From an uncultured Bacilli bacterium (GTDB lineage Bacteria > Bacillota_I > Bacilli_A > RF39 > UBA660), in the NCBI GenBank assembly GCA_947589435.1, contig CANQBI010000017.1, forward strand, positions 1-36,073: a stretch of DNA of 36,073 nt, read 5' to 3'. How positions within the stretch are numbered: position 1 is the first letter of the stretch; every line of letters starts with the position of its first letter. The notes under the pieces are model-generated. The model had not been told where the DNA came from and made no database searches. It saw only the letters and a list, made by a program, of their open reading frames with translations. Positions 29,081 to 34,332 of this stretch are shown here, piece after piece. The position numbers were made by a program, and so were the translations under genes.

Positions 29081-30532
29081 GTGATAAAAATATTGTTAGA
29101 TACTAATTTATTAATATATCGAGAAAATCATTCGGTAATAGATGATAAAGTATTAGAACTTACAAAAATACTTTACGACTCAAATAAATATAAAATTGTG
29201 ATTCATCCAATGACTATAGAAGATATAAATCACATTAAAGATTTAAATGAAAGAGAAATATTCCATAGTAAGATTAAAATCTATGAAACTATAAAAAGAC
29301 CTCCAAAAGCAACAAACCATTTCAATAATCTAGTTGGATGTTCCAAATTCCCAAATGATCTAATTGATAATAATTTGTTATATGCAGTCTATAGAGATTG
29401 TGTTACTTATCTAATTACTAATGATAAAAAATTAAAAAATAAAGCTCAAAAAATAGGCTTAAGTGATAGAGTTTTTGGTATTGAAGATGCGATAGTTAAA
29501 TTTAAGCCACTTGAAGAAAAAGAAGTTAGGACACCAGCGTTTATAAATTATGAATATTTATATAACATAGAGATTGAAGATGATTTCTTTGATTCATTAA
29601 AAGCAGATTATAAAGGATTTGAAAATTGGTATAAGAAAAAATCTAGAGAAGGATATAAGGCTTATATAACGCGGTATTCTAATAATAAAATTGGTTCTTT
29701 TTTAATGTTAAAAGTAGAAGATGAAAGTGAAGATTATTCCGAATTTAAAGAACCATTAAAAAAAGGCATACATTTAAAAGTAGCGACATTTAAGGTTGCA
29801 AACACAGGAAATAAAATTGGTGAAAGTTATATAAAAATTATGGTTGAAGAAGCATTAAAAAATAAAGTTGATGATATATATGTTACTGTTTTTAAAAAAC
29901 AAAAAGAATTAATAAAACTATTTTTTGAATATGGTTTTATTAAAAACACAACAAAAATGACTGAAAAAGCAGATGGAAGTTTAGAAGAAGAATTAGTACT
30001 TGTAAAAAGTATGCATGATAATACTTATCCAAATTTTGATTGGGCAAATAGAGATACTTTTATTGTACCTATTAAACAAAAATATCATGAAAAGTTATTT
30101 CCAGAATCGGAGCCATTAAATCAACTTTCTTTTGAAGACCTTCAAGGCGTTAATACTTATTCACATACCATTAAAAAGGCATACATTTGTAAAAGTCCAA
30201 CACAACAAATAAAACCTGGTGATATTTTGCTTTTTTATGCTAGCGAGAGTAAACGGAGCATAACTACTATAGGAATAGTTGATAATGTATTTAGCAAATT
30301 TGCTACTCCTGAGGATTTATATGCTTTGGCCACAAAAAGAACAGTTTATTCATTAGAAGAAATTAAATCTAACTTTGATACTAGTTTAAAATTAATACTT
30401 TTTAAGTATTATAAAACATTAAAAGAACCGGTAACGTATAGTAGTTTAATAGAAAATAAAATATTAAAGAGTGCTCCTGCGTCTATCGTAAAAGTTGACT
30501 CTAATTTATCAAAAAAAATAATAAATATTTAA
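29081..30532 (+). CDS. PIN nuclease - GNAT - PUA/EVE-like fusion protein
   Basis: A 483-aa three-domain protein. Residues 1-145 form a PIN ribonuclease-like domain: ILLDTNLLIY (Asp7), IHPMTIEDI (Glu47), PNDLIDNNLL (Asp93/Asp96) and YLITNDKKL (Asp115) supply the usual acidic set. Residues about 193-310 read as a GNAT acetyltransferase fold (AYITRYSNNKIGSFLML, LKVATFKVANTGNKIGESYI, IKLFFEYGFIKN). Residues about 325-483 look like a PUA/EVE/ASCH-type RNA-binding domain (FIVPIKQKYHEKLF, IKPGDILLFYASES, TTIGIVDNVF). The start is GTG 29081 with GGGAG 7-8 bases upstream. The next gene encodes a separate ASCH protein. Together they suggest an RNA-targeting toxin or defence module, which is inference from domains. 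Confidence 0.8.
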   Translation: MIKILLDTNLLIYRENHSVIDDKVLELTKILYDSNKYKIVIHPMTIEDINHIKDLNEREIFHSKIKIYETIKRPPKATNHFNNLVGCSKFPNDLIDNNLLYAVYRDCVTYLITNDKKLKNKAQKIGLSDRVFGIEDAIVKFKPLEEKEVRTPAFINYEYLYNIEIEDDFFDSLKADYKGFENWYKKKSREGYKAYITRYSNNKIGSFLMLKVEDESEDYSEFKEPLKKGIHLKVATFKVANTGNKIGESYIKIMVEEALKNKVDDIYVTVFKKQKELIKLFFEYGFIKNTTKMTEKADGSLEEELVLVKSMHDNTYPNFDWANRDTFIVPIKQKYHEKLFPESEPLNQLSFEDLQGVNTYSHTIKKAYICKSPTQQIKPGDILLFYASESKRSITTIGIVDNVFSKFATPEDLYALATKRTVYSLEEIKSNFDTSLKLILFKYYKTLKEPVTYSSLIENKILKSAPASIVKVDSNLSKKIINI

Positions 30533-30558
30533 AATAAAAATAAAATGGGCAATTTTTG

Positions 30559-30567
30559 TGATATAAT
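30559..30567 (+). promoter_or_regulatory. Extended -10 promoter of the ASCH gene
   Basis: TGATATAAT, the same extended -10 sequence as in front of the upstream gene, within the 61-base gap. The two genes may therefore be regulated alike but separately. Confidence 0.55.
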
Positions 30568-30593
30568 GGTTATAATAGATGGGAGGTTATAAG

Positions 30594-30968
30594 ATGTGTA
30601 CTATACTATTGCCTATTAAACCAGAGTATGCAAATAAAATTGTATCCCAAACTAAGTTATACGAATATAGAAAAAATATATGTAAGAGAGATATAGATAA
30701 AATTGTTTTATATAGTACCTCTCCAGTAAAGAGAATTATTGCCGAAGTTGAAGTAAAGTCTATAATAACAAATACTCCCGATAAGTTATGGAATGAAACA
30801 AAACAATATGCTGGTATTTCCAAAACTAAATATATGAAATATTTTGCAAATAAAGATATTGCTTATGCTTATAAATTAGGAAAAGTAATGGTTTATGATA
30901 AGCCAAAAAAATTAAAAGACATTGGGATAGATTATTATCCACAATCTTATGTATATTTAACAAATTAG
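30594..30968 (+). CDS. ASCH/PUA-like domain protein
   Basis: A 124-aa single-domain protein with the ASCH/PUA-like pattern: LLPIKPEYANKIVSQTKLYE, YRKNICKRDIDKIVLYSTSP, VKRIIAEVEVKSII, and a closing PQSYVYL. ASCH domains are predicted to bind RNA or modified bases and are frequent beside toxins and modification enzymes. ATG 30594 is used because GGGAGGT precedes it; an in-frame ATG at 30579 would place that site inside the gene. Its first strand (LLPIKPEYANKI) resembles the start of the C-terminal domain of the upstream protein (FIVPIKQKYHEKLF), so the two may share ancestry or a ligand. Confidence 0.8.
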   Translation: MCTILLPIKPEYANKIVSQTKLYEYRKNICKRDIDKIVLYSTSPVKRIIAEVEVKSIITNTPDKLWNETKQYAGISKTKYMKYFANKDIAYAYKLGKVMVYDKPKKLKDIGIDYYPQSYVYLTN

Positions 30969-31329: not shown

Positions 31330-31434
31330 ATGATAGAAGCTATTGAAAACTCAAGAACCGAATTTAAAGTCAAATTAGTTGATGATTTAAAAGAGTCAGT
31401 TATAGTTTTTTTAATAAATAAAAACCCGCAATAG
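31330..31434 (+). pseudogene. Stump of an AlbA_2 (Schlafen-like) ATP-binding protein
   Basis: A 34-codon frame, MIEAIENSRTEFKVKLVDDL then KESVIVFL, matches the first helix and strand of AlbA_2/divergent-AAA proteins (ESRTxEFKxxxxDDLxKxVIAFxN). After FL it departs into INKNPQ and a stop, inside a hairpin. The body of the gene is missing. It is most likely the 5' remnant of a gene cut by an older rearrangement next to the tRNA-Gly attachment site. Confidence 0.55.
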
Positions 31435-31441
31435 CGAGTTT
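31405..31441 (-). terminator. Probable native tRNA-Gly terminator, displaced by the element
   Basis: On the minus strand AAACTCGC-TATT-GCGGGTTT (one C-A mismatch) is followed by TTATTTATT. It faces the direction of tRNA-Gly, whose 3' end repeat sits 10 bases away at 31450-31468, so it was presumably the tRNA terminator before the 2.8-kb insertion (inference). Confidence 0.6.
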
Positions 31442-31449
31442 AATTCAAA

Positions 31450-31468
31450 TGGAGCAAGTGAGCGGAAT
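31450..31468. repeat. Distal attachment site (copy of the tRNA-Gly 3' end)
   Basis: TGGAGCAAGTGAGCGGAAT is identical to 34258-34276, the 3' end of tRNA-Gly including CCA. A partial third copy (AATTGGAGCAAGTGAG) is at 31491-31506. Confidence 0.9.
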
Positions 31469-31539
31469 TTCTTTGTTTTGATTTAAAAAAAATTGGAGCA
31501 AGTGAGGAGAAATTGTGCTATTGCTTGTGAGTGGGTGCG

Positions 31540-31574
31540 AGTGTAGTTCGCACTCAACGAATGCGAACTACACT
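31540..31574. repeat. 13-bp inverted repeat upstream of rep, candidate replication origin
   Basis: AGTGTAGTTCGCA (31540-31552) pairs with TGCGAACTACACT (31562-31574) across a nine-base loop. An alternative hairpin, GTGCGA/TTCGCAC, overlaps it. GC-richer than its surroundings and 33 bases before rep, it is a good candidate for the Rep nicking site. Confidence 0.55.
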
Positions 31575-31606
31575 ATGCCCCAAAGTTAGACAATATATAA
31601 CGATTT

Positions 31607-32476
31607 ATGAAAAAACTTGATTCTACTATACTTGATAGTAGGCTCATAGTTACGACAAAAAAAGAAAATTATAACCTAAAAATGGTAACTTGTGGCGATT
31701 TTATACAAGTATATTTATATAGTGCTGATAAGATAAAAAGTACTAATGATTACTTGGACGATTTAAATTTAAAAAAGTGTGAAAAGAAAAGAAAACTAAA
31801 TGAGGTTATTAATTTAGAAGAAAGCACTGATATTGAAGATACTACTAATAAAGAGAATTTTAAAAAAGTAGATAAAAAGAATATTATTCGTAGTAAATTA
31901 GAGTGTCAAAGACTAGCTAAAGGAAATATTGAAGAGTGGGAAACTTTTATAACTTTAACTTTTTCTGATAATATTATTGATATGAATTATGCTAATAAAA
32001 AATTTAGATATTTTATCGATAAGATTAAAAGAGTATATAAAGATTTTAAATATCTTTGTGTTCCCGAATTTCAAAAACGAGGAGCTGTACATTATCATTT
32101 ATTGACTAATATTAAAATTAATGATAAAAAATTGATGTATAAACAAGAAAATAATTCTCGGTATAGTCATGTAAAATATTGGAACGAGGGTTTTACTAGT
32201 GTAGAAGAAATTAAAGGCGATATAAAAAAGATAGTAGGGTATATTGCCAAGTACATGACTAAAGACATTGATAATAGGTTGTTTAATCGCCATAGGTACT
32301 TTTATTCAAGAAATTTAAATATTCCTATTGTTGACTATATAAATATTAATATACAAGAGGACATAGAATATTATGCAAAAAAAATTCAAGATAAGGAACT
32401 TATTTACCAAAATGAATATTTAAACCCACTTGATAATTCACAAGTAACTTTTCTTGAATATACAAATTCTAAATAA
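31607..32476 (+). CDS. HUH rolling-circle replication initiator (Rep)
   Basis: A 289-aa replication initiator that would nick one strand at the origin and stay bound through a tyrosine. The three HUH motifs are visible: motif 1 FITLTFS (114-120), motif 2 GAVHYHLLTN with the His162-x-His164 metal pair, and motif 3 VGYIAKYMTKD with Tyr212 or Tyr216 as nucleophile. The general look is that of Reps from small ssDNA plasmids and Microviridae-like or inovirus-like replicons. The N-terminal 95 residues are Lys/Glu-rich and unassigned. The ATG at 31607 has no clear ribosome binding site. It is the first gene of the integrated element. Confidence 0.85.
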   Translation: MKKLDSTILDSRLIVTTKKENYNLKMVTCGDFIQVYLYSADKIKSTNDYLDDLNLKKCEKKRKLNEVINLEESTDIEDTTNKENFKKVDKKNIIRSKLECQRLAKGNIEEWETFITLTFSDNIIDMNYANKKFRYFIDKIKRVYKDFKYLCVPEFQKRGAVHYHLLTNIKINDKKLMYKQENNSRYSHVKYWNEGFTSVEEIKGDIKKIVGYIAKYMTKDIDNRLFNRHRYFYSRNLNIPIVDYININIQEDIEYYAKKIQDKELIYQNEYLNPLDNSQVTFLEYTNSK

Positions 32477-32516
32477 ATTATATATTAATATTTAAAAAAA
32501 GGAAAGAGGAGATTAT

Positions 32517-32663
32517 ATGTTTAGTATTATTTTTACATTAATTGCGTTGGTAGTTTGTGTTATTCATTTATTTAAATACGGGATTGAAGATAGGTACGAT
32601 ATTGATTTTTTGATTATATTTATATTACAAGTATTAATACTTATTTTTAACATAATTAAATAA
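32517..32663 (+). CDS. 48-aa two-helix membrane protein
   Basis: ATG 32517 follows a strong AGAGGAG site. The product, MFSIIFTLIALVVCVIHLFK then YGIEDRYDID then FLIIFILQVLILIFNIIK, has two membrane helices joined by a short charged loop. It lies 40 bases after rep in the same direction. It could be a holin-like or host-interaction protein, or a superinfection/maintenance factor. No family recognised. Confidence 0.65.
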   Translation: MFSIIFTLIALVVCVIHLFKYGIEDRYDIDFLIIFILQVLILIFNIIK

Positions 32664-32682
32664 AAATTTTTCACCTTAGATA

Positions 32683-32863
32683 GCATAATAAAATGTCAAT
32701 AGAAACATGGAATATCGCAACTTTGACATTTTATGATTCAAAGCGAGAATATGCCGTGAAAGTCTATTGACATTTTATTATGCGAAATATAATTGTGTTT
32801 CCTTCTTTCAGAAATGAACTTCTTGTTTCTCTTCTTTGATTATAATTTCATTTTGAAAGAAGG
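32683..32863. repeat. Long inverted repeats in the element, candidate origin or control region
   Basis: The 340-base gene-free stretch 32664-33003 holds a perfect 21-bp inverted repeat (32683-32703 with 32763-32783) and a third copy of its core TTGACATTTTAT between the arms (32723-32734). A second inverted repeat, CCTTCTTTCA (32801-32810) with TGAAAGAAGG (32854-32863), is extended imperfectly inward. Such structure suits a single-strand origin, copy-control RNA or repressor binding sites. Confidence 0.65.
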
Positions 32864-32903
32864 TATGCCTTAACGGCGAGTTATAAAAAATTTATAAAAA
32901 GTA

Positions 32904-32932
32904 TTGACATACATATTAAGTGTTGATATAAT
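32904..32932 (+). promoter_or_regulatory. Consensus promoter of the RHH-integrase operon
   Basis: TTGACA (32904-32909), 17 bases, TATAAT (32927-32932): a perfect sigma-A promoter. Confidence 0.85.
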
Positions 32933-33003
32933 CATTTTGTCATATAATATTTATTCTAAAAAATATTGTTCAAAAATTTAAATTTTAGAAAGGAATGATT
33001 ATT

Positions 33004-33270
33004 ATGGCAAAAGTAAAAAGTAATGTCGAATTGACAAGAGTTAATATGAATTTACCCACTAGTTTAGTCAATGATATTAAAGAATATGCAATGGAACGGG
33101 GAATTAATACTACAAATGCTTATATTAATTTATTACAAGAAATTGTTGAGCAAAAGAAAATGATTAAGCAATTACCCGAAAGTGTTGCTTTATTGCAAAA
33201 GCTTAATCTTATTGATGTTACTAATTTGGAGCAATTAAATAAAATTATGTCAATTCTAGAAAGGAGGTAA
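33004..33270 (+). CDS. Ribbon-helix-helix (Arc/CopG-like) regulator of the element
   Basis: An 88-aa protein whose middle reads as a ribbon-helix-helix fold: strand ELTRVNMNLPT, helix LVNDIKEYAMERG, turn INTTN, helix AYINLLQEIVEQ. The C-terminal 40 residues are helical. Such proteins dimerise on DNA and act as copy-control repressors or excisionase-like factors. ATG 33004 is preferred, since AAAGGA is about 9 bases upstream; ATG 32995 lies directly against that site. The integrase gene starts 2 bases after its stop, so the pair is co-translated. Confidence 0.8.
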   Translation: MAKVKSNVELTRVNMNLPTSLVNDIKEYAMERGINTTNAYINLLQEIVEQKKMIKQLPESVALLQKLNLIDVTNLEQLNKIMSILERR

Positions 33271-33272
33271 AA

Positions 33273-34250
33273 TTGTCTAAAATAAAATTTGCTGAAGTAT
33301 ATGCTGAATATCTTGTGTATGCAAAAAAGAATATGAAACCCCAAACCTATTATACTTTTTTTTATAATTTTAACTCTCGTATTTTACCATTTTTCAAAGA
33401 TATGTATTTAGAAGATATTACAAGTCTTGATATTCTTAATTGGGAAAATGAAATACTAAAATTAAATTATAGTAATAATTATAATAGAGGTTTATATTAC
33501 AATTTAAGTGGTTTTTTTGAATATTGCAAAAAGATTCATGGTTTTGATAAAACAATTATAAGTAATGTTGGTTGTTTTAAAAAACATTTAGAAGAAGATA
33601 AACATGACTTTTATACTTTAAAAGAGTTTAAGAAATTTATTAAATGTGTTGATAATAATATCTATAAACAATTTTTTAATCTTATGTTTTTTACTGGTAC
33701 AAGGCCCGGTGAGGCAATGGCTTTAAAATTTAGCGATTTAAAAAATGGGTATATTTCAATTAATAAAACTATTGAAAGTCATGGTAATCGTAGTTTAGGT
33801 ACTCCTAAAAATACTTCTTCTATTAGAAATATTAAAATTGATAGAAGATTACAAAAAGATTTAATGAAGTTATATAAATATTATAAAGACCAATACCATG
33901 AAGATTATGATTATTATATATTTGGTGGTAAAAAGTGCTTAAGTCCTACTACAATTAATAGGCATAAATTAGATGCTTGTAATAAAGCTAATATTAGACC
34001 TATTACATTACACCAATTTAGGCATAGTCATGCAACTTTATTATTAAAATGTAATATTTTAATCAATGAAGTTTCAAGAAGATTAGGACATAGTAAAACT
34101 TCTACAACACTAGATATATATGCCCACACTGATTTAACACAAGAAAAAAGAGTGTTTAACACCCTTAATTCAATGCGATACAATATCTTTGATATATTTT
34201 TCGAACCTATTAAGAATATTGTATCCTTTATATTAAAGCATAGGCTTTAA
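33273..34250 (+). CDS. int: Tyrosine recombinase/integrase
   Basis: A 325-aa integrase catalysing site-specific insertion into, and excision from, the tRNA-Gly 3' end. The N-terminal core-binding domain (about 1-100) is followed by the catalytic domain with all key residues: Arg144 (TGTRPGEAMAL), Lys179 (GTPKNTSSIR), His247 and Arg250 (LHQFRHSHAT), His273 (RLGHSKTSTT) and nucleophile Tyr283 (LDIYAHT). The start is TTG 33273 with AGGAGGT 4 bases upstream. It lies directly next to the attachment site, as usual for such elements. Confidence 0.96.
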   Translation: MSKIKFAEVYAEYLVYAKKNMKPQTYYTFFYNFNSRILPFFKDMYLEDITSLDILNWENEILKLNYSNNYNRGLYYNLSGFFEYCKKIHGFDKTIISNVGCFKKHLEEDKHDFYTLKEFKKFIKCVDNNIYKQFFNLMFFTGTRPGEAMALKFSDLKNGYISINKTIESHGNRSLGTPKNTSSIRNIKIDRRLQKDLMKLYKYYKDQYHEDYDYYIFGGKKCLSPTTINRHKLDACNKANIRPITLHQFRHSHATLLLKCNILINEVSRRLGHSKTSTTLDIYAHTDLTQEKRVFNTLNSMRYNIFDIFFEPIKNIVSFILKHRL

Positions 34251-34257
34251 CAACAAT

Positions 34258-34276
34258 TGGAGCAAGTGAGCGGAAT
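34258..34276. repeat. tRNA-proximal attachment site
   Basis: Copy of the 19-bp core TGGAGCAAGTGAGCGGAAT that forms the 3' end (T-stem strand, acceptor and CCA) of tRNA-Gly on the minus strand. Confidence 0.9.
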
Positions 34277-34332
34277 CGAACCGCCGTCCCAACCTTGGCA
34301 AGGTCGTATACTAACCGCTGTACTACACCTGC
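34258..34332 (-). tRNA. tRNA-Gly (GCC), integration target
   Basis: On the minus strand: acceptor GCAGGTG/CACTTGC (one G-T), anticodon stem CGACC/GGTTG with loop TTGCCAA (anticodon GCC), T arm GGCGG-TTCGATT-CCGCT and encoded CCA. Length 75. The element restores the full 3' end, so the tRNA stays functional. Confidence 0.96.

Follow-up and report, generated by a model that had tools for sequence, protein, structure and literature searches.

A probable miniature integrating rolling-circle element with inovirus kinship in a tRNA-Gly gene of an uncultured gut bacterium

A 2.8-kb element in the tRNA-Gly(GCC) gene of an uncultured Bacilli bacterium is probably a minimal integrating rolling-circle replicon akin to inoviruses, which would be excised by its own integrase (Int), would prime its second strand at a hairpin, and would leave the cell with help. 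We give this reading, which draws on sequence comparison, a probability of about 0.65. It is built on the anatomy of the element, a related locus that is free of it, a family of similar elements, the kinship of Rep and Int with inovirus proteins, tRNA-like attachment (att) cores in inoviruses, and a covarying hairpin. Excision, replication, and reintegration we infer from the gene families, and the circular form, the origin, the function of the hairpin, and the travel route are likewise proposed readings. The arrangement first noted is real and coherent, and it extends to a whole family of miniature inovirus-related elements that integrate and would replicate as rolling circles.

A four-gene element between copies of a tRNA-Gly end

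The ORF list together with a tRNA and repeat search of the window (the whole 36,073-nucleotide stretch of DNA that was analysed) placed the element, with four forward ORFs between exact 19-bp repeats, at positions 31450-34276 (Table 1). This arrangement in tRNA-Gly(GCC) had been described in an earlier note on this DNA and was confirmed here: when the left flank was Markov-shuffled 20,000 times, the best exact match to the tRNA end was 13 bp, compared with 19 bp in the real sequence. An empty-site relative was found as well. In the congener G032, the sequence corresponding to about 31407-31468 (terminator included) joins the tRNA and the common right flank directly, which reveals an element-free site. 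The left end of the element is double, and the outer of its two att copies is the boundary that matches this site. The inner, imperfect copy resembles the GAGGAG variant of the tRNA end in congeners and may be left over from an earlier insertion or serve as an accessory site.

Farther to the left, the window and G032 differ, so the left flank has also been rearranged. A 34-aa ORF (31330-31434), which we take to resemble the start of an AlbA_2-type gene, is followed by a terminator, and the same terminator in G032 sits after a longer gene; the left flank thus seems to have lost most of a gene. The left flank also carries a gene pair (29081-30968) matching the candidate defence system PDC-M11 (M11A, 1.8e-141; M11B, 3.3e-44), which ends about 480 bp from the element.

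Table 1 Features of the element and its boundaries (positions in the window).
Feature	Position	Strand	Description
attL	31450-31468	.	19 bp repeated from the 3' end of tRNA-Gly, forming the left boundary; once joined, the flanks agree with the G032 locus that lacks the element
Second imperfect att-like copy	31491-31506	.	AATTGGAGCAAGTGAG then GAGAAA
Hairpin upstream of Rep	31533-31581	+	13-bp perfect stem, longer imperfect stem; z -6.3
Rep	31607-32476	+	289 aa; HUH endonuclease, HYH motif, Tyr in VGYIAKYMTKD; inovirus-type rolling-circle initiator
48-aa hydrophobic ORF	32517-32663	+	Without homologue; either cargo or a chance ORF
Conserved hairpin downstream of Rep	32683-32783	+	Candidate single-strand initiation site/ssDNA promoter
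Second hairpin of 331-nt gap	32801-32863	+	Followed by ATGCCTTAACGGCGAG, recurring in L006 and L012
RHH (CopG/Arc-like) regulator	32995-33270	+	Pfam/PHROG searches; directly upstream of Int in relatives
Tyrosine integrase (Int)	33273-34250	+	Motifs complete (R, K, HxxR, H, Y); TTG start after AAGGAGG
attR	34258-34276	.	Inside the tRNA-Gly 3' end; right boundary
tRNA-Gly(GCC)	34258-34332	-	Intact despite insertion

Rep matched REP_ORF2-G2P (E 4e-20) and, among the PHROGs, a rolling-circle initiator of phages (5e-30), and Int matched Phage_integrase and PHROG 1. The RHH protein gave a weak Pfam match (1.5e-3), yet is conserved in relatives; it is a candidate repressor or recombination directionality factor. 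What had been called a 48-aa membrane protein is present as a hydrophobic ORF but may be a chance ORF, because no homologue was found in any family member or searched library. Searches of Pfam and PHROGs revealed neither a pI/Zot gene in the element nor a coat or adsorption family match for any of its ORFs; an unrecognised coat protein is conceivable, the 48-aa ORF being without homologue. No ORF of the element encodes a TcpA coupling protein, and the 289-aa Rep has no helicase domain match. An origin from a microvirus, one of the possibilities raised earlier, was not borne out either, as no capsid gene of this type was matched in Pfam or PHROGs.

The element belongs to a family in uncultured gut Bacilli

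Scanning genome contigs for Rep yielded 24 loci, among them 11 elements (the one in the window included) with a common layout: two att repeats, the second of them in a tRNA 3' end, enclose Rep, one or more small genes, a slot filled by RHH or another small gene, and Int, in this order. The elements measure 2.65-4.11 kb, have att repeats of 17-21 bp, and occupy genes for tRNA-Gly(GCC) (one), Gly(UCC) (four), Pro(UGG) (five), and His (one). Their hosts are uncultured gut Bacilli/Mycoplasmatota of several genera. L006, L013, and L028 are further members that lack a clean repeat pair or are cut by contig ends, and one genome, G365, hosts two elements (L013 and L017). Of the order's 385 genomes, 29 have Rep homologues; about ten belong to the element type, and most others lie beside inovirus genes. 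With element-type Reps in about 2-3% of these 385 genomes, the strong rarity supposed at first does not hold.

The small ORFs between Rep and RHH differ from member to member, so this interval looks like a cargo slot. Elements in which RHH was not detected encode instead an 84-101-aa protein (L011:2343-2594, L016:2274-2540, L028:1472-1774), for which no Pfam family was found, plus an antisense XRE-type regulator.

The recurrence of Rep and Int in all 11 bounded elements demonstrates that the two form one unit. That they stem from separate insertions, a concern of the earlier note, is refuted by their position between single att pairs in three tRNA types, and nothing was found in favour of this explanation.

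Rep and Int are related to proteins of different inoviruses

The HYH and Tyr motifs are conserved in 13 relatives, and the family matches identify the protein as an HUH rolling-circle Rep of the inovirus type. Rep is about 34-49% identical to Reps of inoviruses from related gut Bacilli (L005, L019-L027, L102). A tree of 24 Reps set all 13 that come from elements on one side of a branch (97/94), adjoining L019/L023, two inoviruses from the same bacterial group as the elements; a wider tree that included distant Reps suffered from long-branch problems. Searching viral contigs with the Rep alignment retrieved two inovirus contigs only. An AlphaFold2 model of Rep (mean pLDDT 75, from 13 sequences) gave weak matches in the PDB (E 0.008 or worse), led by Helitron and geminivirus-type HUH domains, and matched 191 viral models at E 1e-3 or better.

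Int matched 1,064 phage records, of which the best five are complete inovirus genomes from rodent and lemur faeces (bajarodino viruses 33, 49, and 55; Dulem viruses 59 and 71) with 44-56% identity, followed by records at about 33%; as a query against viral contigs, Int gave no match. In the integrase tree, elements and inoviruses are intermingled, with the L007 integrase nesting among those of inoviruses. In circular inovirus genomes, a core that resembles the 3' end of tRNA-Gly or tRNA-His lies 18-106 bp after int; the 17-bp repeat of element L014 has exactly the sequence of the core in bajarodino virus 49 (TGGAGCGGATGATGGGA). Judging from these cores, elements and inoviruses seem to have one kind of att site in common.

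In the inoviruses whose Int is nearest, Rep is short and unrelated to the element Rep at the BLAST level. Rep and Int kinship thus point to different inoviruses, which counts against the proposed reading. The locus L138 (G046:C105) is an inovirus that combines a short Rep of a different kind (by eye, Rep_2-like) with an integrase of the element family and the conserved hairpin, indicating that Rep and Int modules have been exchanged.

Few host genomes carry a recognisable inovirus helper. No pI/Zot was found in the element's own host draft genome (93% complete), and among all 13 element host genomes (own included) a pI homologue was present in two only: clearly in the host of L028 (E 6e-30) and less surely in that of L014 (E 5e-19 inside a 472-aa ORF). 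The remaining hosts showed weak pI matches (E about 1e-4) in ~440-aa ORFs resembling DnaA. The congener G025 harbours a clear pI and an inovirus-like Rep locus, so inoviruses do occur in the genus.

A covarying hairpin is shared by elements, inoviruses, and plasmids

Most relatives have, in a matching position, a counterpart of the hairpin that immediately precedes Rep (z -3.4 to -5.7, with a weaker one in L016); this hairpin is a candidate for the double-strand origin. The 331-nt gap between the 48-aa ORF and RHH also folds far better than its shuffles (z -6.3), and its first hairpin, the conserved one downstream of Rep, recurs in most elements, on the Rep strand. RNAalifold on an unfitted MAFFT alignment of seven elements found changes on both sides in 10 of 25 hairpin pairs. 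Across 19 sequences, aligned so as to fit the model, the share of paired cells was 95.6%, versus at most 42% when slid, and 14 of the 25 pairs had changed on both sides.

Hairpin models also matched inoviruses of the same bacteria (L102, L025, and L061, as well as L138 with its different Rep), inoviruses of isolate genomes (L066, L069, L070), and Dulem virus 59. Further matches were obtained in a 2.6-kb Rep/MobV plasmid and in conjugative plasmids, among them F, where the hairpin is on the minus strand at 53989-54078 (NC_002483; L084:8990-9079). This would be the transferred strand of F, provided that transfer runs leftwards from oriT. Like the Frpo/ssi ssDNA promoters of F (PMC9849209, PMC11541004), the element hairpin may act in a single-stranded stage, but its models match F away from the Frpo-like sites upstream of ssb, which they do not detect. 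Among 100 relatives, the hairpin was present in three genomes only, namely in the element of the window, in an inovirus, and at a site beside a serine recombinase. Patterns of the hairpin in IMG/VR also match contigs without recognised inovirus genes (L071, L073, L076, L079), and the hairpin has no Rfam family.

Because the hairpin accompanies different Reps and kinds of elements that share a single-stranded stage, our best guess is a single-strand initiation site or ssDNA promoter. A Rep-specific double-strand origin was rejected, given the different Reps of L066, L138, and plasmid F. Likewise, no match in G4, alpha3, phiX174, M13, ColE1, or pUB110 pointed to a G4-/phiX-type complementary origin or a pUB110/ColE1 signal. 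One arm of the hairpin holds ATTGAYATT, which is reminiscent of phiX-type nick sites. BLASTN of the intergenic regions returned mostly AT-rich noise.

Discussion

In the cycle that we propose, Int would excise the element from tRNA-Gly as a circle, probably with RHH as directionality factor or repressor, and Rep would nick the origin, probably the hairpin upstream of rep, to give rise to single-stranded circles. The conserved hairpin downstream of Rep would then prime the second strand, and Int would reinsert the double-stranded circle into the tRNA 3' end, where the 19-bp repeat would restore the end of the tRNA. Because the element has no coat, pI, or transfer genes, it would have to leave the cell with outside help, for which packaging by an inovirus in the manner of TLCphi is our first choice and the most likely exit route, at a little under even odds. 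This route has to be set against several observations. No known packaging signal was identified in the element, a pI homologue is present in just two of 13 host genomes, and the same compact layout in streptococci has been read as conjugative mobilisation (PMC5357655). Nor does the hairpin itself mean packaging, since it is also found in conjugative and Rep/MobV plasmids.

Conjugation offers a different exit, in which the element would be a miniature integrative and mobilizable element (IME) whose HUH protein acts as a relaxase and whose excised circle is mobilised through the pore of a conjugative element. Streptococcal IMEs with a compact relaxase-excisionase-integrase order, relaxases resembling rolling-circle initiators, and insertion in tRNA 3' ends (Coluzzi 2017, PMC5357655) speak for it, as do the HTH-ORF-Rep-DUF3173-Int unit on Enterococcus faecium plasmids and the conserved hairpin in conjugative plasmids including F and beside the serine recombinase in a relative's genome. 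However, the element lacks a coupling protein, is smaller than the reported 5-18 kb, and has a Rep and an Int nearest to those of inoviruses rather than to the Enterococcus unit. We consider this explanation unlikely, though not to be dismissed, and rate conjugative mobilisation similarly or marginally higher when it is weighed as one of three transfer options. The same low odds apply to a self-sufficient integrating rolling-circle plasmid without dedicated transfer, spread by chance uptake, vesicles, or generalized transduction. The genes indeed suffice for replication and integration only, most host genomes are without a helper phage, and bacteria are known to harbour integrated plasmids that combine an HUH Rep with att repeats (PMC6668415), but sequence sharing and matching att cores suggest regular contact with inoviruses, and the elements are spread over several genera. 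Kinship of Rep and Int with inoviruses and the small size would also fit a decayed prophage that has lost its structural genes. This is disfavoured and very improbable, as all 13 element Reps sit on one branch apart from inoviruses, the ORFs are intact, remnants of structural genes were not seen, and gene order and att repeats are conserved.

We retain the helped, inovirus-related replicon as the preferred reading. The interpretation in the earlier note is supported in part. An integrating rolling-circle element kin to inoviruses is backed by the element-free site, the family, and the Rep and Int kinship, and a replicating circle is presumed. For an inovirus-like satellite, the replication module without morphogenesis genes and the chromosomal integration were found, and satellite status itself is plausible. 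We regard as doubtful, with the odds clearly against it, the more ambitious view that uncultured gut Bacilli hold a hitherto undescribed family of inovirus satellites (about 2.7-4 kb) that integrate into tRNA genes by an integrase of their own, together with a new class of cis-acting ssDNA hairpin that plasmid F and small Rep/MobV plasmids share with the elements and with inoviruses whose Reps differ. A new class of mobile element was too strong a claim, because there are known IMEs with the compact Rep/relaxase-excisionase-integrase order and known inovirus satellites that depend on Xer, and the transfer mode that would make the family new is itself a proposal.

Inovirus satellites include RS1. 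TLCphi, a satellite inovirus of Vibrio cholerae, resembles the elements in its autonomous replication module, lack of morphogenesis genes, and chromosomal integration (PMC4246890). In contrast to TLCphi, which uses host XerC/XerD at dif, the element family encodes its own tyrosine integrase and targets tRNA genes, and packaging of the elements by a helper is a proposal. The integrase-bearing gut inoviruses share with the elements the related Int and the tRNA-3'-end-like att core downstream of int, but carry Zot/pI and further genes on 5.3-7.1 kb, besides their dissimilar short Reps. Inoviruses of related gut Bacilli (L005, L019-L027, L102) have the same Rep family, as a sister group in the Rep tree, together with pI, adsorption, and coat-like genes and, unlike the elements, no integrase beside Rep. 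The compact streptococcal IMEs (Rel_PHA00330, MobT, and others) have the Rep/relaxase-excisionase-integrase order and the tRNA 3' ends in common with the element, RHH being the putative excisionase. They are larger (5-18 kb), generally carry TcpA (19 of 21 in this compact class), which the element lacks, and are described as mobilised by conjugation (PMC5357655). Integrated pCRESS plasmids likewise combine an HUH Rep with site-specific integration and no structural genes, but their Reps have a nuclease and a helicase domain (PMC6668415), in contrast to the Rep of the element.

The element illustrates how little DNA an integrating mobile element can need, and exchanged integrases and a similar att site link filamentous phages to IME-like elements. 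The covarying ssDNA hairpin makes the start of second-strand synthesis testable in widely different bacteria. Should packaging hold true, the elements would be filamentous-phage satellites that enter tRNA genes by means of an integrase they encode themselves. What looks like a comparable miniature element, a ~4-kb HTH-ORF-Rep-DUF3173-integrase unit, is present on the E. faecium plasmid pNUITM-V19_1 (L056:3402-7292).
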